Under the pieces are notes generated by a model, which saw only the letters and a list, made by a program, of their open reading frames with translations, was not told the DNA's origin and searched no databases. Below are positions 40,152 through 49,468 of a stretch of DNA of 50,974 nt, piece after piece. Location: assembly GCA_012728915.1 (NCBI GenBank), contig JAAYEC010000027.1:1-50974 (forward strand), written 5' to 3'. Position 1 is the first letter of the stretch; the number at the start of each line of letters is the position of its first letter. Both the position numbers and the translations under genes were made by a program. Source of the stretch: Deltaproteobacteria bacterium (GTDB taxonomy: Bacteria > Desulfobacterota > Syntrophia > Syntrophales > UBA2192).

Positions 40152-42431
40152 ATGCATCATCGCAATCGCTGGACGTTGGCCATCGCGGCGATTCTTTGCG
40201 CCGTTTTCCTCGCAGGCATTGCCGGCTGCAGCAAGGAGGGCAAGAAGGAGGGCCACTTCAAGAAGGGCGAGACCTACCTGTCGGAGGACAAGTTCCGCGA
40301 AGCCGTCATCGAGTTCAAGAACGTCCTGCAGATCGACCCCAACGACGCGAAGGCGCAGCTCAAGCTCGGCATAGCCCAGCTGGGGGCGGGTGATCCCCGC
40401 GAGGCCTATGCGGCATTCAGCAAGGCGATCGAGCTTGATCCCGACTCCCTGGAGGCCCGGGTGCAGCTGGGCCGGCTCTTCCTCATGGCGCGGGAACCCG
40501 AGAAGGCCCGCGAGCAGGCGAAATACATCATCGGGAAGGAACCCGGCAACGCCAAGGGGCATCAGCTGATGAGCATGGTCTACCTCGGTGACCGCAAGCT
40601 CCCCGAGGCCATCGCCGAGGCTGAAAAGGCCGTCGAGGCCGATCCGAAAAAGGCGGAGAGCCGCCTGCACCTGGCCGGCCTGTACATCCTGAACAAGGAC
40701 CTGCCCAGGGCCGAGGAGGCCTTCAAGGCCGCCGTGGCGTCCGAACCCGATTCCGTCCAGGCGCGCCTGGCCCTGGCGGGCTTCTATGCCCGCTCGGGCA
40801 AGCCGAAGGAGGCCGAGGAGACCTACCTGGAGGCGACGAAGGCGGCCGGCAGGGAGCCTTCCGCCCGGGTCGCCCTCGGGAACTTCTACCTCTCCCAGAG
40901 GCGGCTGGAGGATGCGGAAAAGCAGTTCATCCAGGCCGCTGAAGCGGCCCCGAAGAAGGCCGCCGCCCTTGTCTACCTGGGCGACTTCTACCTGGCCTGG
41001 CAGAAGCGCGACAAGGCCCTCGAGAGCTACAGAAAGGCCGCCGACAGCGAGCCCGAAAACATCGCGCCCCAAGTGAAGCTTGCCGAGTACTACCTGGCCG
41101 AGCGCAAGACCGATGAGGCATCGAAGGCGCTCGAGAAGATCCAGAAGATCAACCCCAGGAGCCACGAGGGGACGATCATCAAGGCGCAGATCCTCGTGGC
41201 AAGAAACGAGTTCGCCGAAGGGATTACCCTCCTGCAGGGCTATTTGAAGGATAATCCCAAGTCGCCCGCGGGGCACTACTACCTGGGGCTGGCCCAGTTC
41301 GGAAACCGCGAGGTGCAGCAGGCCAAGGCCTCGATCGCAGAGGCCATCAAGCTCAACCCCCGGTGGCTCGAACCCCGGCTCGTGCTGGCGGACCTGGCAA
41401 TCTCGACGGGCGACAGCAAGACGGCCATCGAGACCCTCCAGGCCGTCCTCAAGGAGGACCCGAGAAACGCGCGCGCGCTGATGAGTCTCGGAAACGCCTA
41501 CGCCGTCAGGAGCGACTGGGCGAAGGCCGAAAGCGTCTTTGACGAACTCATCAGGGTGAGCCCCCAGAATGCCATGGCCTATGTCCAGTCCGGCCGCGTC
41601 TATCTTGCCCGCAAGCATGAGAAGGAGGCCCTGGCCCGCTTCGAGAAGGCCCTGACGCTGCAGCCGGGCGCCGCCGAGCCCATGCGGTTCATCGTCAACG
41701 CCTACATGGGCCGCGGCGAGGCCCAGAAGGCGATCGACCGGGTCGAGGCCCAGTTGAAGGCGGCCCCCGGCAACCCCTACTTCTACAACCTGCTCGGGGC
41801 ACTCTACGAGACGAAGAAGGATATGGCCAGGGCCGAGCAGTACTACCGCAAGTCGATCGAGTCGAATCCCGACGCCCCCGACCTCTACGTGTCCATTGCC
41901 AGCTTCTACGCAAGGCGGAACATGGCCGACAAGGCCGTTGGCGAGCTCAACGCGGCCCTGCAGAAGAACCCCGATTCCGTCTCGGCCCTCATGGCACTGG
42001 CCGGCATCTACCAGAGCCAGAACAAGTATGACCTGGCCAAGGAAAACTACCGGAAAGTATTGAAGATCAACCCCAAATTCCCACCGGCGGCCAATAACCT
42101 CGCCTACATCTACGCAGACGAAAACACCAATATCGACGAGGCCCTGACCCTGGCCCAGTCGGCCAGGGAGGCCCTGCCCGACAACCCCTACATGGCCGAC
42201 ACACTGGGGTGGGTCTACTATCGAAAGAATGTCTACACCCGGGCCATCGTTTACCTGAAAGAGGCGGCCGAAAAGCTTCCCAACCAGCCCACGGTCCGAT
42301 ACCACCTCGGCATGGCCTATCACAAGAACGGCAATGCCGACCTTGCCAGGAAAGAACTCGGCAAGGCCCTCGAGCTTGACCCGAAACTCAGGGGAAATGA
42401 AGAGGCGAAGGCCATCCTGCAAAAAAAGTAA
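40152..42431 (+). CDS. prsT: TPR-repeat lipoprotein of the XrtA/PEP-CTERM system (PrsT-like)
   Basis: 759 residues. A lipoprotein signal ends in LAGIAGC (Cys near 26). The rest is almost entirely tetratricopeptide repeats of 34 residues, about 20 copies, such as REAVIEFKNVLQIDPNDAKA. The size, architecture and place beside exopolysaccharide genes match PrsT, a putative lipoprotein of PEP-CTERM systems. TPR arrays of this kind bind partner proteins at the membrane. TGGAGGTAC precedes the ATG. A terminator follows at 42457-42489. Confidence 0.8.
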   Translation: MHHRNRWTLAIAAILCAVFLAGIAGCSKEGKKEGHFKKGETYLSEDKFREAVIEFKNVLQIDPNDAKAQLKLGIAQLGAGDPREAYAAFSKAIELDPDSLEARVQLGRLFLMAREPEKAREQAKYIIGKEPGNAKGHQLMSMVYLGDRKLPEAIAEAEKAVEADPKKAESRLHLAGLYILNKDLPRAEEAFKAAVASEPDSVQARLALAGFYARSGKPKEAEETYLEATKAAGREPSARVALGNFYLSQRRLEDAEKQFIQAAEAAPKKAAALVYLGDFYLAWQKRDKALESYRKAADSEPENIAPQVKLAEYYLAERKTDEASKALEKIQKINPRSHEGTIIKAQILVARNEFAEGITLLQGYLKDNPKSPAGHYYLGLAQFGNREVQQAKASIAEAIKLNPRWLEPRLVLADLAISTGDSKTAIETLQAVLKEDPRNARALMSLGNAYAVRSDWAKAESVFDELIRVSPQNAMAYVQSGRVYLARKHEKEALARFEKALTLQPGAAEPMRFIVNAYMGRGEAQKAIDRVEAQLKAAPGNPYFYNLLGALYETKKDMARAEQYYRKSIESNPDAPDLYVSIASFYARRNMADKAVGELNAALQKNPDSVSALMALAGIYQSQNKYDLAKENYRKVLKINPKFPPAANNLAYIYADENTNIDEALTLAQSAREALPDNPYMADTLGWVYYRKNVYTRAIVYLKEAAEKLPNQPTVRYHLGMAYHKNGNADLARKELGKALELDPKLRGNEEAKAILQKK

Positions 42432-42456
42432 GCCCGAAGACCGCCACCTACAAAAA

Positions 42457-42489
42457 AAGGAGGTCGGTATTTTTAGCCGACCTTCTTTT
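42457..42489 (+). terminator. Intrinsic terminator after the TPR lipoprotein gene
   Basis: AAGGAGGTCGG (42457-42467) pairs with CCGACCTTCTT (42477-42487) with one mismatch and a 9-nt loop. It is followed by TT, with A-rich sequence on the left. It is a clear end for the upstream transcript. Confidence 0.75.
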
Positions 42490-42555
42490 CTTTGCTTGCA
42501 GGAAATCCATCATAAATCCGAAATAACCCTTAAATTCACCCGATTGAAGAAAGAT

Positions 42556-42572
42556 ATTGTAAAAAATTTTTA
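42556..42572. promoter_or_regulatory. TGTAAA-N5-TTTACA dyad, candidate enhancer site 1
   Basis: A 17-bp dyad, TGTAAA-AAATT-TTTACA, located about 102 bp before the -24 box of the sigma-54 promoter at 42674. This is the usual distance for an NtrC-type enhancer, and the half-site plus 5-bp gap layout is like that of NtrC sites. An identical dyad apart from the centre occurs at 43012. Confidence 0.6.
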
Positions 42573-42673
42573 CAGGATAAAGAATAGTCTCTCCGGAGAG
42601 CCTTCGCTGTGGCGGGTTACAGAGTAATACTTGAATATCATTAGCGAATATTAACGATGACAATGACCTAATA

Positions 42674-42689
42674 TGGAATGATAGTTGCA
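42674..42689 (+). promoter_or_regulatory. Sigma-54 promoter of the exopolysaccharide operon
   Basis: TGGAATGATAGTTGCA has the invariant GG and GC at correct spacing and matches the consensus except for the C after GG. Start point predicted near 42701. Sigma-54 control is known for PEP-CTERM-type exopolysaccharide loci through PrsK/PrsR. Confidence 0.65.
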
Positions 42690-42833
42690 ATCAAAAAAGC
42701 AGATGCCGCTCAGCAAGTTCGATAGAAGTTCCGAAGGCGGAAGTCATTCAAAAACGTCCCTGGACGATCCAGGAATTCTCCTCTTTCTCAAAACAGATTT
42801 TTGAGCGTATCCGGATCGAGGAGACTATTGCAT

Positions 42834-43016
42834 ATGTTGCAATCGATTCATTTTAAGAAAGATGTAATCGACGGGGCGAAGCTGTATCCGGAGATGCTTT
42901 CCTCTTTGAAAGAGAAAAAATACGACATAAATCATACTTCCGTCGTATTGATTTCCACAAGTGGTTACGTAGAATGCGTTAAAGATCGGAAACACCCGCA
43001 AAATTCAAATTTGTAA
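42834..43016 (+). CDS. Possible small AT-rich gene in the exopolysaccharide leader
   Basis: 60 residues from ATG 42834 (MLQSIHFKKDVIDG to QNSNL), with GAGGAG about 10 nt upstream. It follows the sigma-54 promoter and stops just before the sigma-70 promoter. No family is recognised, and base composition is much more AT-rich than the neighbours. It may be a leader peptide, a decayed gene or chance. Confidence 0.3.
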   Translation: MLQSIHFKKDVIDGAKLYPEMLSSLKEKKYDINHTSVVLISTSGYVECVKDRKHPQNSNL

Positions 43017-43028
43017 ATTTTTTTTACA
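43012..43028. promoter_or_regulatory. TGTAAA-N5-TTTACA dyad, site 2
   Basis: TGTAAA-TTTTT-TTTACA, 17 bp, sharing both half-sites and gap length with the dyad at 42556. Its right end is 8 bp before the -35 box of the sigma-70 promoter at 43037, so a protein bound here could activate or block that promoter. Confidence 0.5.
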
Positions 43029-43036
43029 ATTATTTA

Positions 43037-43065
43037 TTGCCATGAGAGTGGCGAGCACTTATAAT
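43037..43065 (+). promoter_or_regulatory. Strong sigma-70 promoter of the polysaccharide export gene
   Basis: TTGCCA (43037-43042, 5 of 6), 17-bp spacer, TATAAT (43060-43065, perfect). The start point near 43072 leaves a 90-nt leader. It rules out the ATG at 43042 as the export gene start. Confidence 0.7.
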
Positions 43066-43161
43066 GACCCATCAGCCAAAAACGCTGCAGACGCCCGCAC
43101 GGCATCGGAAATCATTTTCCACGGGGTCGGTTCGGCCCGTTCACCTAGCCGCTGGAGAGAG

Positions 43162-43827
43162 ATGATGAGAAGACTTCAGATCGCAGGTCTTTTTTTGATC
43201 GCCTATTGTCTGCTGGCCGGCGTCGCCGTTGTCTTTGCCCAGCAGGCGGCTCAAGATGCCGGAAAGGCTGAGAAGAAAGCCGTCGCGCCGAAGGCCGAGC
43301 TTCAGGCGAGGCAGGCCACGGCACAGGTCGCCGCCGACAGCGGAACATACGTGATCGGTCCCGAAGACGTCCTTTACATCTACGTGTGGAAAGAGGAGAA
43401 CCTCTCCCGATCGGTTCCCGTCCGGATGGACGGCATGATTTCCATCCCTCTCGTCGACGACATAAAGGCGGCCGGCCTCACGCCGCTGCAGCTCAAGGAG
43501 CTTCTCCTGGCAAAACTGCGGGAGTTCGTAGACACCCCTGATGTCACCGTCATCGTCACGGAGGCCAACAGCTACAAGGTCTACGTCCAGGGCGAAGTGA
43601 GGACACCGGGTGTCATACGCCTCCGTGCGGAGACCTCTCTCGTACAGGTCATTGTCCTGGCCGGCGGTTTTACCGACTGGGCCGACAAGAAGAAGATCAC
43701 GATCCTCCGCAAGGAAGGCGGCAAGGAGAGCCGCATCCGGGTCAACTACAAAAAAATCATCGACGGGGACGAAGGAGCCCGGGACATCATCCTCAAGTCC
43801 GGCGACATCATCATCGTTCCCAATTAA
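43162..43827 (+). CDS. Polysaccharide export protein (Wza family)
   Basis: 221 residues. A signal peptide (RRLQIAGLFLIAYCLL, likely cut after VFA) lacks a lipobox, unlike many Wza proteins. The export domain follows (YVIGPEDVLYIYVWKEENL, DDIKAAGLTPLQLKELL), then one SLBB domain (YVQGEVRTPGVIRL, ending LKSGDIIIVPN). It forms or gates the outer-membrane exit for exopolysaccharide. GGAG lies 4-7 nt before ATG 43162/43165. First clear gene of the operon after the sigma-54 and sigma-70 promoters. Confidence 0.88.
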   Translation: MMRRLQIAGLFLIAYCLLAGVAVVFAQQAAQDAGKAEKKAVAPKAELQARQATAQVAADSGTYVIGPEDVLYIYVWKEENLSRSVPVRMDGMISIPLVDDIKAAGLTPLQLKELLLAKLREFVDTPDVTVIVTEANSYKVYVQGEVRTPGVIRLRAETSLVQVIVLAGGFTDWADKKKITILRKEGGKESRIRVNYKKIIDGDEGARDIILKSGDIIIVPN

Positions 43828-44063: not shown

Positions 44064-45488
44064 TTGAAACGCAAGCACTCGATCGCGCTGGCGAGTCTTT
44101 TTTTACTGCTTATTCTGTCAACCAACGCGGCCGGCCAGGCCGCTTCACCCGGTGCTTCCGGAACCTCCGGCACATCCGGCACTCCTTCGACGTCCGGAAC
44201 ACCCGATACATCCGATCGTTCAGCCCCAATATATATTACCGGCGAGAGAGGTCCGGCCGGGCCGGTGCCGCTGCCCGGTGAGGCGCGCTTCGAACTGAGG
44301 CCCTACGTCACCGTTCAGGAACGTTACACGAGCAATGTTGATTTGACTCCCGATGGGCCCGGGAAAAAAGAGGACTGGATCACCACCGTCTATCCGGGGA
44401 TCTCGTTTATCAGCAACGACGCGCGGCTCGGCGCGGAGTTGAACTACCGCGCGGGCTTCAACTTTTACGCGCATGAGAGCGACCGGAACTATGTAAGCCA
44501 CGACGGCCTCGTGAATCTGCGGTACAACCCCGATCCGCGCCTGACCTTTCGCCTCCGTGATTTTCTGCAGCGCTCCGACGATCCGCGGCCTGCAGTTTAC
44601 GGGGCGGGGCAGGCAGGATACCAATTGACATCATACCAAGGCAGGCAGCGGTACTGGCGCAACGTGTTCGAGCCGGCCGTGGACTGGCAGTTCGCCCGGG
44701 AAAGCACGATCGGCCTCTACTATCGCAACAACATCCTGCGAAACGACGACAACGCCCTGTACGAAGACAGCACGGAAAATTACGTCGGCCCGCGCCTCAC
44801 CTACTGGTTTGACCAGCGCAACGGGATCGTCCTCGAGTACGGGTACACGGCCGGCGATTTCGACACCTCGGCCGACTTCAAAGGGCATCGTGCCTACGCA
44901 CGGTACAACTACCGTGCAAGCGCGATGACGACGCTATTCGTCGATTATGAGTTCCTGGCACGCGACTACGAGGACCCGGGAAACGACTATGTCGTCCATG
45001 CGCCTGCGGTCGGGATCGATTATCGTTTCAGCCCGACGCTGTCCGCTACCGCCCGGGCCGGTTACTTTCGATGGGACCCCGACCGGGGGAATGCCGAGGA
45101 CGGGTTCAACGGCCTGCTGAGCCTGACGCAGAGAGACAGGGTGACGACGTACACGCTGACTCTGGAGGGCGGTTACCGGGAGGATCTGTTCTCGGCGGAC
45201 AACCTGGGCTTTGCCAGGTACTACCGGGGCTCGGCCATCGTGAACCACCGGTTGACGGAGCGGTTTTCCGTCGGACTGATCGGCATCGTCGAACGGACCG
45301 ATTATACCCAATTTTCCAGGAAGGACTGGCTCTACACGGCGGACGTCACGGCGGACTACCGGATCCTGCGGTGGCTGACCGTCGGCGCTCGGGCGGGCTA
45401 CGGGGAAGACGATTCGAACATCCCCACTGCATGCTACGATGAATGGCATGCCTTCCTGACCCTGACGGCAAGCTACAACGTTTTCTAA
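44064..45488 (+). CDS. Outer-membrane beta-barrel protein, PEP-CTERM system-associated type
   Basis: 474 residues from TTG 44064, with AAGGAGGG at good spacing. A signal peptide is followed by a Ser-Gly-Thr linker made by a short DNA repeat (GTSGTSGTPSTSGTPDTSD). The rest is alternating strands rich in Tyr and Arg, ending in Phe (LTASYNVF), the usual C-terminal signature of an outer-membrane barrel. Position and size fit the uncharacterised barrel seen in XrtA exopolysaccharide clusters. It may form the export pore with the Wza-like protein. Confidence 0.75.
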   Translation: MKRKHSIALASLFLLLILSTNAAGQAASPGASGTSGTSGTPSTSGTPDTSDRSAPIYITGERGPAGPVPLPGEARFELRPYVTVQERYTSNVDLTPDGPGKKEDWITTVYPGISFISNDARLGAELNYRAGFNFYAHESDRNYVSHDGLVNLRYNPDPRLTFRLRDFLQRSDDPRPAVYGAGQAGYQLTSYQGRQRYWRNVFEPAVDWQFARESTIGLYYRNNILRNDDNALYEDSTENYVGPRLTYWFDQRNGIVLEYGYTAGDFDTSADFKGHRAYARYNYRASAMTTLFVDYEFLARDYEDPGNDYVVHAPAVGIDYRFSPTLSATARAGYFRWDPDRGNAEDGFNGLLSLTQRDRVTTYTLTLEGGYREDLFSADNLGFARYYRGSAIVNHRLTERFSVGLIGIVERTDYTQFSRKDWLYTADVTADYRILRWLTVGARAGYGEDDSNIPTACYDEWHAFLTLTASYNVF

Positions 45489-45533
45489 CGTCTGTTCACC
45501 ATTCAAAACCCGCAGCTTTTTCTGCCTGGTTGA

Positions 45534-45591
45534 ATGACCGAACAGACGAAATAGACAAAATAGACAAAATAGACAAAATAGACAAAACAGG
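45534..45591. repeat. 9-bp tandem repeat array (copy G)
   Basis: ACAGACGAA followed by four ATAGACAAA units and a partial unit (45542-45590). The preceding GAATGACCGAACAGACG resembles the right end of palindromes A and B plus tail, so this looks like a remnant of the same composite element. It sits directly before the chain-length gene. Confidence 0.8.
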
Positions 45592-45611
45592 CCATATAGA
45601 TTGGTGCCAAC

Positions 45612-47033
45612 ATGATCAACCCCGGCCGTTCATACAACGTCGAAGACTACAAGGAAATCTTCCTTCGCAGGAGACTCTATTTTATCATCCCTCTCGTGGT
45701 CGTTTTCCTGGGCGCCTGCGTTTGGGCGGCCTTGGCCCCGCGGAAATACATGGCGTCCACTCTCGTCCTGGTTACCCCTCCACGGGTTCCTGCCGAACTG
45801 GTCCGGTCGACGGTGACCAGCGGCATCACGGAACGTCTCAACTCCATCAGCCAGGAGATCATGAGCCGCACACGGCTGGAAGCGGTCATCGACGAGTTGA
45901 AGCTGTTTCCTGAAGAATCGAAGAAGGTGGACCGCGAAGTCCTTGTCGAGTTGATGAGGCAGAACATCAGGGTGGACATTCCGCAGAGGACATCGGAGAA
46001 CGTAGGCTATTTTGCAATCAAGTACACCTCGAAAGACCCGGTTGTCGCCGCTGCGGTGGCCAACAAGCTTTCCTCGCTCTTTATCGAAGAGAACCTGAAA
46101 CAGCGCGAACAACAGGCTGTCGGCACGTCGGAGTTTCTCTCGAACGAACTCAAGACCACGAGGGAGCGTCTCGAGACACAGGGGAAGGAATTGGCCGATT
46201 ACAAACGACGGCACCTCGGGGAACTTCCGGAGCAGAGGGATACGAACATCCGGCTCCTGGAGCAGATCCAGCTTCAATACCAGCGGAACGAGGAGAGTCT
46301 CAGGGCGGCGCAGGACCGGCAGCTGCTGATCGGACGTCAGATGAGGGATCTCGAGAATCCAACCGTCCAGCCGGGTGAAACGGGTTCGGGAGGCAGATCC
46401 CGGGGAAGTTTCGAGACCCAGCTCGATGACATGAAAAAGAACCTGGCGGAACTGCAGTCACGCTACACCGAGCGGCACCCCGATGTGGTTTCGCTGAAGA
46501 GAAAAATCGCCGAAATGGAAAAGAGGAAAGACGCCTTCAACATCAACAATGACCCGCGGTACCGGGAGCTGGCGAATGCCATGGCGGCAACGGACCTCGA
46601 GATCAAGCGGCTCCAGGACGAGAGCGGCAAGCTGCGTGCCCAAATCGGCCAGTACCGGGGAAGGGTCGAGGGCGCTACGGTTCGCGAACAGCAGATGTCT
46701 TCGCTCGTCCAGGAGTATGACAACACGAAGAGGCTCTACGAGTCTCTTTTAAGAAAGAGCGAAGAGGCCCAGCAGGCGGAAAACCTCGAGCGGCGACAGA
46801 AGGGCGAGCAGTTCCGCGTGGTAGATCCCGCAAGGGTGCCTGAGAAGCCTGTCCAGCCGGATGTTCCGAAGGTGCTCCTTTTAGGGTTGATCGGCGGCCT
46901 GGCCTGCGGATTCGGCGGCATCTTTGCCCGCGAGCAGCTCGACCGTTCCTTCCACGATCCCGAGGACATTGAGGCCACCCTGGGCTTCAGGGTGCTCGCC
47001 AGCATCCCCAGAATCACAAGCAAGGCACAGTGA
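45612..47033 (+). CDS. Polysaccharide chain-length determinant (Wzz family, XrtA type)
   Basis: 473 residues. An N-terminal membrane segment (FIIPLVVVFLGACVWAAL) and a C-terminal one (VLLLGLIGGLACGFGGIF) enclose a long coiled-coil periplasmic part (about 150-400). The Pro-rich stretch before the second segment (RVPEKPVQPDVPK) is typical of Wzz proteins. It sets polymer length together with the tyrosine kinase encoded downstream. No strong ribosome site is visible. The stop overlaps a GTG start option for the next gene. Confidence 0.87.
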   Translation: MINPGRSYNVEDYKEIFLRRRLYFIIPLVVVFLGACVWAALAPRKYMASTLVLVTPPRVPAELVRSTVTSGITERLNSISQEIMSRTRLEAVIDELKLFPEESKKVDREVLVELMRQNIRVDIPQRTSENVGYFAIKYTSKDPVVAAAVANKLSSLFIEENLKQREQQAVGTSEFLSNELKTTRERLETQGKELADYKRRHLGELPEQRDTNIRLLEQIQLQYQRNEESLRAAQDRQLLIGRQMRDLENPTVQPGETGSGGRSRGSFETQLDDMKKNLAELQSRYTERHPDVVSLKRKIAEMEKRKDAFNINNDPRYRELANAMAATDLEIKRLQDESGKLRAQIGQYRGRVEGATVREQQMSSLVQEYDNTKRLYESLLRKSEEAQQAENLERRQKGEQFRVVDPARVPEKPVQPDVPKVLLLGLIGGLACGFGGIFAREQLDRSFHDPEDIEATLGFRVLASIPRITSKAQ

Positions 47034-47035
47034 CC

Positions 47036-48115
47036 ATGTATAAGAAATTCTACGGACTGAAAGACAAACCCTTCGAGATCACGCCGGATCCCAGGTACCT
47101 GTACCTGAGCGAAAGCCACCGGGAGGCCCTGGCCCACCTGACCTACGCGCTCAACGAGTCGAAGGGCTTTACCGTCATCACGGGCGAGGTCGGAACGGGG
47201 AAGACGACACTTGTCCAGATGCTCCTCTCGCGGCTCGACAGCCACACGCGGATTGCCCACCTGTTCAACCCGAAGCTCGGCACTCGCGATTTCTTCAAGT
47301 ACATATGCCAGGACTTCGGGCTGAAGACGGACGGGATCGCCACCAAGGGGGAGTTCCTCTCGCTGCTTCACACGTTCCTCATGGAGTGCTACGCACGGCG
47401 GGAGCGGGTGGTCCTGATCGTTGACGAGGCCCAGACGCTGTCGCCGGCGCTGCTCGAGGAGGTGCGGCTCATCACCAACCTGGAGACGCCGAAGGCCAAA
47501 CTCCTGCAGGTCATTCTTCTCGGCCAGCCGGAGCTTGACAAAACCCTTGCCATGAGCGAGTTCCGGCAGCTCAAACAGCGGATCTCCCTGCGTTTCAACC
47601 TCAAGCCCCTGAACAGGCAGGAAACAGGGGAGTACATCGTCCGCCGCCTCAAGGCGGCAGGGGCGAGGAACACGAGCCTGTTCGACGACGACGCCGTCAA
47701 GGAGATCTTCCGTTACTCGAAAGGCATTCCCCGGCTCATCAACGTGGTCTGTGACAACTCGCTCATGACGGGCTTTGTGTACGAGAAACATATCATTGAC
47801 CGGGGCATCGTTCGTGAGGTCATCAAGGATATGGAAGGGCCTGCCGTGAGAAAGGGATGGAAGGCCATCCTTATCCCCGCAATCGTCATCCTTGCGATCG
47901 CAGGCGTTCTCATCGCCTGGTGGGGCAATCTGAGCTTCGGCGATCGGTCCTGTGAGGGGGAAAGCATCCAGAAGGTCTTCCGCAGCAAGATCTCCAAGGT
48001 CCTCGAGGTTACCTCACTCGACCGCATTGACAGGGCCACAGAAGCCTCGCAAAACAACAACTCCGCCGCGGAGCAGGACACCCCGGCCTCCAATTCGCCG
48101 GAGCCGAACAAGTAG
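47036..48115 (+). CDS. XrtA/PEP-CTERM system-associated ATPase
   Basis: 359 residues from ATG 47036 (GTG 47030 overlaps the previous stop as GTGA). The ExeA/GspA-like AAA domain starts YGLKDKPFEITPDPRYLYLS, with Walker A GEVGTGKT (50-57) and Walker B VVLIVDEAQ. A membrane segment (ILIPAIVILAIAGVLIAWW) near residue 280 is followed by a polar tail of about 60 residues. ATPases of this kind are standard members of XrtA exopolysaccharide clusters; the exact role is not known. Confidence 0.85.
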   Translation: MYKKFYGLKDKPFEITPDPRYLYLSESHREALAHLTYALNESKGFTVITGEVGTGKTTLVQMLLSRLDSHTRIAHLFNPKLGTRDFFKYICQDFGLKTDGIATKGEFLSLLHTFLMECYARRERVVLIVDEAQTLSPALLEEVRLITNLETPKAKLLQVILLGQPELDKTLAMSEFRQLKQRISLRFNLKPLNRQETGEYIVRRLKAAGARNTSLFDDDAVKEIFRYSKGIPRLINVVCDNSLMTGFVYEKHIIDRGIVREVIKDMEGPAVRKGWKAILIPAIVILAIAGVLIAWWGNLSFGDRSCEGESIQKVFRSKISKVLEVTSLDRIDRATEASQNNNSAAEQDTPASNSPEPNK

Positions 48116-48129
48116 GCACTCCGTGTCAA

Positions 48130-48160
48130 TTATGAGTTTTGAGTGTTGAATTTCGAGTTG
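48130..48160. repeat. Degenerate TTTTGAG-type heptamer repeat
   Basis: TTATGAGTTTTGAG and its variants run on to TTTCGAG. A reverse version (ACTCATAACTCAAG, 48404-48417) lies on the other side of the inverted-repeat element at 48245-48374. Confidence 0.5.
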
Positions 48161-48244
48161 AACGACAGATTCGATGAACAGAACAACGTATCAGCTCGAA
48201 GAGAAGGATAAGACGGACATCGTAAAACGAGCACATACATCCCG

Positions 48245-48374
48245 AATCCAGCGATAAACCACGTCATCGCGAGCAAAGCGTGGCGATCTCGCTGTTTCCA
48301 TGAGATTGCCGCGCACCCTGCGGGTACTCGCAATGACCCTTTCTAACCGTATTTATGCTTCTTATCGCTGGATT
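48245..48374. repeat. 130-bp element with 13-bp inverted ends enclosing palindrome copy F
   Basis: AATCCAGCGATAA (48245-48257) and TTATCGCTGGATT (48362-48374) are perfect inverted repeats. Inside lies copy F of the palindromic family: GTCATCGCGAG (48263-48273) to CTCGCAATGAC (48327-48337), with inner GCGATCTC/GAGATTGC. The element occupies the 324-bp gap between the ATPase and kinase genes, which otherwise holds no gene. No target duplication was confirmed. Confidence 0.75.
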
Positions 48375-48439
48375 GGGGTACATAGGAACTGCGGATCGCA
48401 CATAAACTCATAACTCAAGACTGTTTACGGAAAACGAAA

Positions 48440-49468
48440 ATGGGTAAGCTCTACAAAGCCCTCGAGAAAGCCGAAAAAGAGCGCATAGGTATCCAGCTGC
48501 CGCAGGTGCCCCGGGAGGAGCCAGCCGTGGAGCTCCCGGAGCCGCAGCATGCAACGGCAGCAGCGCCGGTAACCGTGACAATGCCTGATGGGGCTGAAAT
48601 CCGAACCGCGAGAGGCGCAGAACCGCAACCTGTAAGGGCACCAGCACCGATCAGCATGGCATTGCCCGAAGAGACGGTCTTCCCGGAGTTCGATGAGAAA
48701 CTCGTGGCGTACCGCGAGCCGGGGTCCGTCGTATCGGAACAGTTCCGGAAACTGAGGACGCAGCTGCTGACTCTGAATTTACCCGGACAGCCCAAGACGA
48801 TCATGGTCACCAGCGCTTCGGAGGGGGAGGGGAAGACGCTCGTATCCACGAATCTTGCGACGGTCCTTGCCCACGACCTGAACTCCCATGCCCTGCTCGT
48901 GGATGCCGATCTCCGCAATCCGGCCCTGTCCCGCTGGTTCGGGCTGTCCAACGGGCGCGGGCTCTCCGATTACCTGACGGGCGGCGCGGACATGCCGGAG
49001 CTTCTCCTGAAGACGAAGATCGCCAAGCTCTCGATCCTTTCGAGCGGGACGATCCGGGACAACCCCGTCGAGCTGATCGGCTCGAAAAGAATGGAGGCCC
49101 TCGTCAATGAACTCAAGAGCCGCTACAGCGACAGGTACATCATCTTCGACTCGTCCCCGCTGCTGGCCACGACGGAGCCCAGCGTGCTCACGAAGCTTGT
49201 CGACGGGATCATCCTCGTGGTGAGGGCAGGGGTCACGCCCCGCGAGTCGGTAAAGCAGGCCCTCACGACGATCGACCCGGCGAAGATCCTGGGCATCGTT
49301 CTGAATGATCTGGCGCTGCAGTCAAAAGACCTCAATGCCAGGTATTTCGGGACCTCGAAATACTACTACCGCTACGGGTATGGTGAATCGAAGGAGCAGC
49401 CGGAGGAGGAAACGGGGGCTGACAAGGTCCTGAAAAACGTGTCGCGGTTTTTCAAGAGGGACGAATGA
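48440..49468 (+). CDS. Bacterial tyrosine kinase of exopolysaccharide synthesis (CpsD/XrtA type)
   Basis: 342 residues. The N terminus GKLYKALEKAEKER is typical of the XrtA-associated kinase. A Pro-rich linker leads to the BY-kinase domain with Walker A SASEGEGKT (125-133), Walker A' LLVDADL (152-158) and IIFDSSPLL as Walker B. A Tyr cluster near the C terminus (SKYYYRYGYGES) is the likely phosphorylation site. It regulates polymer length with the Wzz protein. The ribosome site is poor. The gene is separated from the ATPase by an inverted-repeat element. Confidence 0.88.
   Translation: MGKLYKALEKAEKERIGIQLPQVPREEPAVELPEPQHATAAAPVTVTMPDGAEIRTARGAEPQPVRAPAPISMALPEETVFPEFDEKLVAYREPGSVVSEQFRKLRTQLLTLNLPGQPKTIMVTSASEGEGKTLVSTNLATVLAHDLNSHALLVDADLRNPALSRWFGLSNGRGLSDYLTGGADMPELLLKTKIAKLSILSSGTIRDNPVELIGSKRMEALVNELKSRYSDRYIIFDSSPLLATTEPSVLTKLVDGIILVVRAGVTPRESVKQALTTIDPAKILGIVLNDLALQSKDLNARYFGTSKYYYRYGYGESKEQPEEETGADKVLKNVSRFFKRDE

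Follow-up and report, generated by a model that had tools for sequence, protein, structure and literature searches.

Within the window, a stretch of 50,974 nucleotides of a Syntrophales genome, we identified two 17-bp dyads of the form TGTAAA-N5-TTTACA upstream of an XrtA-type exopolysaccharide (EPS) export operon. We consider it likely that these dyads are binding sites of the response regulator PrsR and that the operon is thereby controlled by the two-component system behind the PEP-CTERM surface proteins. What could be read directly from the DNA is which box this is, which genes it accompanies, that PrsK and PrsR are encoded and that the sites are conserved.

Identity of the dyads

Both dyads fall within the 733 bp separating prsT from the EPS operon (42432-43164), together with a -24/-12 site and a TTGCCA-17-TATAAT promoter (Table 1). 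The first-pass annotation had described the two as sharing identical half-sites and gap, and both match the pattern exactly; dyad 2 was correctly placed at 43012, while dyad 1 begins at 42558, 2 bp from the 42556 originally given. In a genome-wide scan the perfect dyad occurred nowhere else in the 2.79 Mb. The refuting case named in that annotation, a dyad only as frequent as AT content predicts, was not borne out by shuffling. Shuffling the 733-bp intergenic region 2000 times yielded no exact dyad, local 115-bp shuffles around dyad 2 gave one in 0.01 %, and the number of dyad matches with up to two mismatches in the window was equalled by no dinucleotide shuffle. Sites as good as the sigma-54 promoter P1 and the sigma-70-type promoter P3 appeared in 0 of 400 and 0.25 % of shuffles respectively. 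As shuffles so rarely reproduce each of them, neither the dyads nor P1 or P3 would be expected by chance.

Table 1 Features of the prsT-EPS region, with coordinates in the window
Feature	Coordinates	Strand	Evidence
prsT, XrtA/PEP-CTERM system TPR lipoprotein, upstream neighbour	40152..42431	+	TIGR02917 488.5 bits, cut-off 312.2
Predicted intrinsic terminator of prsT	42455..42489	+	14-pair stem and T run; fold z -4.4; 91% conserved in G005
Putative PrsR box 1 (PEP-CTERM box, Haft motif 1), TGTAAAAAATTTTTACA	42558..42574	.	Exact dyad
P1, candidate sigma-54 -24/-12 promoter TGGAATGATAGTTGCA, predicted start ~42700	42674..42689	+	Consensus score, conservation
P2, sigma-70-like promoter; block ATACTTCCGTCGTAT (42934-42948) overlapping TTGATT-16-TAGAAT (at 42948), predicted start ~42982	42934..42975	+	Conservation
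Putative PrsR box 2, TGTAAATTTTTTTTACA	43012..43028	.	Exact dyad
P3, sigma-70-type promoter TTGCCA-17-TATAAT, predicted start ~43072	43037..43065	+	11/12 vs TTGACA-17-TATAAT
XrtA/PEP-CTERM EPS export protein, operon gene 1	43165..43827	+	TIGR03027 the best match
Remaining XrtA EPS operon genes in the window	44064..49468	+	NCBIfam matches

A 17-nt motif ending in TTTACA, sometimes repeated and followed by a -24/-12 motif, was reported upstream of PEP-CTERM genes by Haft et al. in 2006 (PMC1569441), with the -24 (GG)/-12 (GC) site following the box at 32-92 nt. The motif co-occurs with PrsK, PrsR and PrsT, and as "motif 1" was predicted to be the target of the response regulator PrsR. Both of our dyads have the 17-nt length and the TTTACA end, and the same box precedes PEP-CTERM genes of this genome and of the genus. 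Because boxes before PEP-CTERM genes elsewhere in this genome match the description of Haft et al., prsT lies upstream and XrtA-type EPS families lie downstream, the dyad is most likely the PEP-CTERM box and PrsR its activator; therefore no unknown activator is required.

PrsR is encoded on contig C75 (14051-15478, minus strand; 615.6 bits with TIGR02915, whose cut-off is 502.6), with receiver, sigma-54 interaction and Fis-type HTH domains and the loop GAYTGA. PrsK matches TIGR02916 with 388 bits, above its cut-off, and PrsR, PrsK and PrsT are thus all present in the genome. The single NtrC-type sigma-54 enhancer-binding protein that had been postulated for both dyads is supported and can now be given a name. 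Dyads with one mismatch number two genome-wide, C75:11977 and C75:13930, both before PEP-CTERM genes. The PEP-CTERM genes of this contig sit immediately downstream of prsK-prsR, and each of the three has boxes or near-boxes along with a -24/-12 site. In the prsK-prsR/PEP-CTERM cluster of the same contig, a gene for a fibronectin-type-III protein is preceded by a c-di-GMP-I riboswitch (L015:6926-7020, minus strand, 68.8 bits).

Four genomes of the genus contain prsT, namely the window's own (G000), G003, G004 and G005, and among them we counted 13 exact dyads against none of the reversed pattern, in agreement with the enrichment foreseen at PEP-CTERM genes that have sigma-54 sites. Of the 13, at least six precede PEP-CTERM genes, one is near VPLPA-CTERM genes and four are the EPS copies; for several, a -24/-12 site follows after 62-66 bp. 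The exact dyad was rejected as an order-wide marker of PrsR, its counts outside the genus being about those of the reversed control. The upstream regions of 33 PEP-CTERM genes revealed the alternative half-sites TGTAAA or TGTCGG/TGTCGA, giving the refined box pattern TGT(AAA|CGR)-N5-(TTT|YCG)ACA. Boxes before these genes commonly come in pairs, with 53-66 bp from the proximal copy to the -24 element and ~141-165 bp from the distal one.

Promoters and flanking genes

P1 has the architecture TGG-N8-TTGC with the canonical GG-N10-GC spacing and begins 99 bp past dyad 1; the position about 100 bp after the dyad proposed by the first-pass annotation stands, and the gap of N9 given there is corrected to N8. 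It matches 10 of the 12 bases specified in TGGCACGNNNNTTGCA, GG and GC included, when judged against the sigma-54 context TGGCACG-N4-TTGCW, and has the same sequence in G005. The distance of 99-100 bp between box 1 and the -24 element is beyond both the 32-92 range of Haft et al. and the local mode of 62-66, and other boxes in the genus are also found 117-240 from a -24/-12 site. Box 2 is followed by just a poor GG/GC match, 93 nt downstream. RpoN (TIGR02395) had no match in the 81-contig draft of G000 despite its ~20 NtrC-type homologues. As four other NtrC-type proteins that were checked retain the GAFTGA loop, we suspect an assembly gap.

The sigma-70 promoter P3 was upheld in its position 8 bp after dyad 2. 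Its hexamers are conserved at 12/12 bases in G005 and its spacer at 7/17; no counterpart was found in G003 or G004. A third promoter-like block, P2, was missed in the first reading and is more deeply conserved than P3. The pattern ATACTT-N4-CGTAT over TTGxxT-16-TAGAAT occurs in one copy each in 5 of 155 genomes of the order (reversed control 0), each time ahead of the EPS export gene. The block ATACTTCCGTCGTAT, centred at ~ -41 of P2, looks like a possible operator. One P2-bearing genome, G001 (the same sequence as L046), has no PrsT match, no PrsR above the cut-off and no box near P2, which makes it probable that P2 is the operon's older promoter and independent of PrsR, the PrsR boxes presumably having been added in the PrsR-bearing branch.

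On the upstream side the prsT terminator is predicted to insulate the region. Downstream, the EPS export protein scores 150 bits against TIGR03027, under the model's cut-off of 180, and the start of its gene was placed by conservation at 43162/43165, 43162 being an earlier in-frame ATG. With the true operon start here, P1 and P3 are both intergenic, and an ORF start at 43042, overlapping P3, is unlikely since conservation sets in only at 43162/43165. The following genes encode a TIGR03016-like barrel, a chain length determinant (TIGR03007), an ATPase (TIGR03015) and a tyrosine autokinase (TIGR03018); among the XrtA-specific models at 44064..49468, TIGR03007 alone exceeds its curated cut-off. 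A short ORF at 42834-43016 was discarded as a gene, having no family match and a length and frame that vary among relatives, and a leader RNA element was likewise discarded, all Rfam matches being sub-threshold and fold z-scores ~ -1. Between P1 and P2 we observed a second conserved stretch (42838-42892), in which a hairpin-like TCGATT...AATCGA is followed by a run 95% identical in G005; it has no match in Rfam.

Conservation of the boxes among relatives

G005, a sister species, is 59% identical to G000 over the intergenic region. With the exact pattern dyad 1 gave the impression of being non-conserved, which was overturned under the refined box, the G005 sequence at the aligned place being the accepted variant TGTAAAAATAACCGACA. 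Measured from the prsT stop, box 1 lies at +127 in G000 and +129 in G005, and P1, identical at 16/16 bases, at +243 and +246. Box 2 is at +581 in both genomes, with half-sites differing by one base in the G005 copy CGTAAAATTTTTTTACA, and the P3 hexamers are at +606 in both.

G003 and G004 have a pair of boxes separated by 32 bp directly upstream of P2, one of which deviates from the pattern at a single position; both genomes have a perfect TGTAAAGATATTTTACA before P2. A weaker sigma-54-like site is found farther upstream of these boxes, with no box upstream of it. Neither genome has a PrsR above the cut-off (best ~45% identity), though boxes and PEP-CTERM genes are present, which would reflect either missing contigs or a diverged regulator. 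Boxes are thus located directly upstream of sigma-70-like promoters in 4/4 species having the arrangement, with centres at ~ -52 from the predicted start of P3 (G000, G005) and ~ -62 from that of P2 (G003, G004). In a more distant Syntrophaceae genome a one-mismatch dyad, TGTAAAAATCTTTTACT, occurs 101 bp before the EPS export gene (L051:3837-3853).

Proposed regulation and alternatives

In the model that we infer, PrsK would phosphorylate PrsR, and PrsR on box 1 (centre ~ -134) would activate P1 at 42674 with sigma-54 RNA polymerase; the eps mRNA would then have a long leader and be made in step with PEP-CTERM gene expression. Binding and activation by PrsR, the start sites and an influence of box 2 on P3 are all predictions here. 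The sigma-70-like P2 (42948) and P3 (43037) would provide PrsR-independent or PrsR-modulated expression, and box 2, just upstream of P3, may modulate the latter. The box centres fit an upstream activator at P3 and P2. For control of sigma-70 promoters by PrsR, which we only infer, the adjacency of boxes to such promoters in the four species is no more than indirect support. We have little confidence in the fuller version, in which PrsR would work on one operon in two modes, turning it on from box 1 with sigma-54 and tuning a sigma-70 promoter from box 2, such that EPS export and PEP-CTERM proteins are co-induced, unlike in Zoogloea.

The role of box 2 in particular can be read in several ways. 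NtrC-type activators can act at a distance, and box 2 could be a remote enhancer of P1 from downstream or a DNA-loop partner of box 1, its closeness to P3 being incidental. The paired boxes usual at PEP-CTERM promoters of the genus are in line with this, as are G003 and G004, where both boxes are downstream of the sigma-54-like site. In G000 and G005, however, box 2 follows P1 at a distance of over 300 bp and yet has its offset to P3 kept exactly, and it abuts P2 in G003 and G004, so that a sigma-70-like promoter is adjoined in every species with the arrangement; we regard a remote role as doubtful. A purely compositional reading, that dyad 2 is an A+T-rich UP element of P3 with an accidental likeness to the box, takes its support from the location of dyad 2 within -40 to -60 and its all-A/T run. 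We find it improbable given the rarity of the exact dyad in local shuffles, the half-sites retained in G005 bar one base and the perfect copy before P2 in G003 and G004. Recognition of the dyads by a different factor with a similar palindrome, of Crp/Fnr type or another of the NtrC-type regulators that this genome encodes in number, is very improbable: a 17-bp symmetry is that of NtrC-type sites while a Crp site has 16 bp, and the boxes track PEP-CTERM genes and -24/-12 sites as reported by Haft et al.

A switch between two modes, PrsR directly repressing or activating the sigma-70-type promoter from box 2 and activating sigma-54 transcription from box 1, has a parallel in FleQ of Pseudomonas aeruginosa, an NtrC-type protein that controls sigma-54 flagellar promoters and the sigma-70 EPS promoter of pel, the latter through two boxes (PMC10723142). 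The box centres at P3 and P2 are one helical turn apart, and box and hexamers are conserved where the spacer is not, both of which favour such a switch. The independent geometries number only two, however, and we know of no dual sigma-54/sigma-70 role for PrsR, so that this reading too seems rather unlikely. FleQ furthermore binds c-di-GMP and works with FleN while PrsR is a phospho-receiver protein, and in our case both promoter types precede a single operon.

The arrangement that we favour, PrsR boxes on the EPS operon, resembles the system of Haft et al. in its 17-bp box ending in TTTACA, downstream -24/-12 site, repeated boxes, PrsK/PrsR/PrsT and XrtA-type EPS genes. It differs in what follows the box, an EPS export operon instead of a PEP-CTERM gene, in its spacing (99 against 32-92) and in having, more than 300 bp farther downstream, a second box next to a sigma-70-like promoter. 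The PrsK-PrsR-RpoN control of pepA in Zoogloea and Aquincola (PMC9850573, PMC9012009) is similar in that an RpoN-dependent -24/-12 promoter has a predicted upstream enhancer in the same sorting system. EPS biosynthesis there is however reportedly independent of PrsK, PrsR and RpoN, with normal EPS production stated for Zoogloea prsK and prsR mutants (PMC9012009), whereas here the boxes are on the EPS operon. DVUA0057 of Desulfovibrio vulgaris is likewise a response regulator predicted for PEP-CTERM genes and located in an EPS-related operon; its DAP-chip targets included PEP-CTERM genes and other matches, with no binding motif validated, and the promoter layout seen here is not described there (PMC3333781).

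The box type has been known since 2006 and normally switches on exosortase-sorted surface proteins; what is new is its wiring before an EPS operon as a conserved pair. Because this pair precedes a polysaccharide export operon, the sugar and protein components of the matrix may share a single coordinating regulator. In the floc-formers studied, PrsK-PrsR and RpoN control the matrix proteins and reportedly not the polysaccharide, while in this Syntrophales lineage both halves of the matrix could be switched jointly. The EPS operon promoter offers a clean case for an NtrC-type phospho-regulator on sigma-54 and sigma-70 promoters of one operon, and the refined box pattern should aid searches for PrsR regulons elsewhere.
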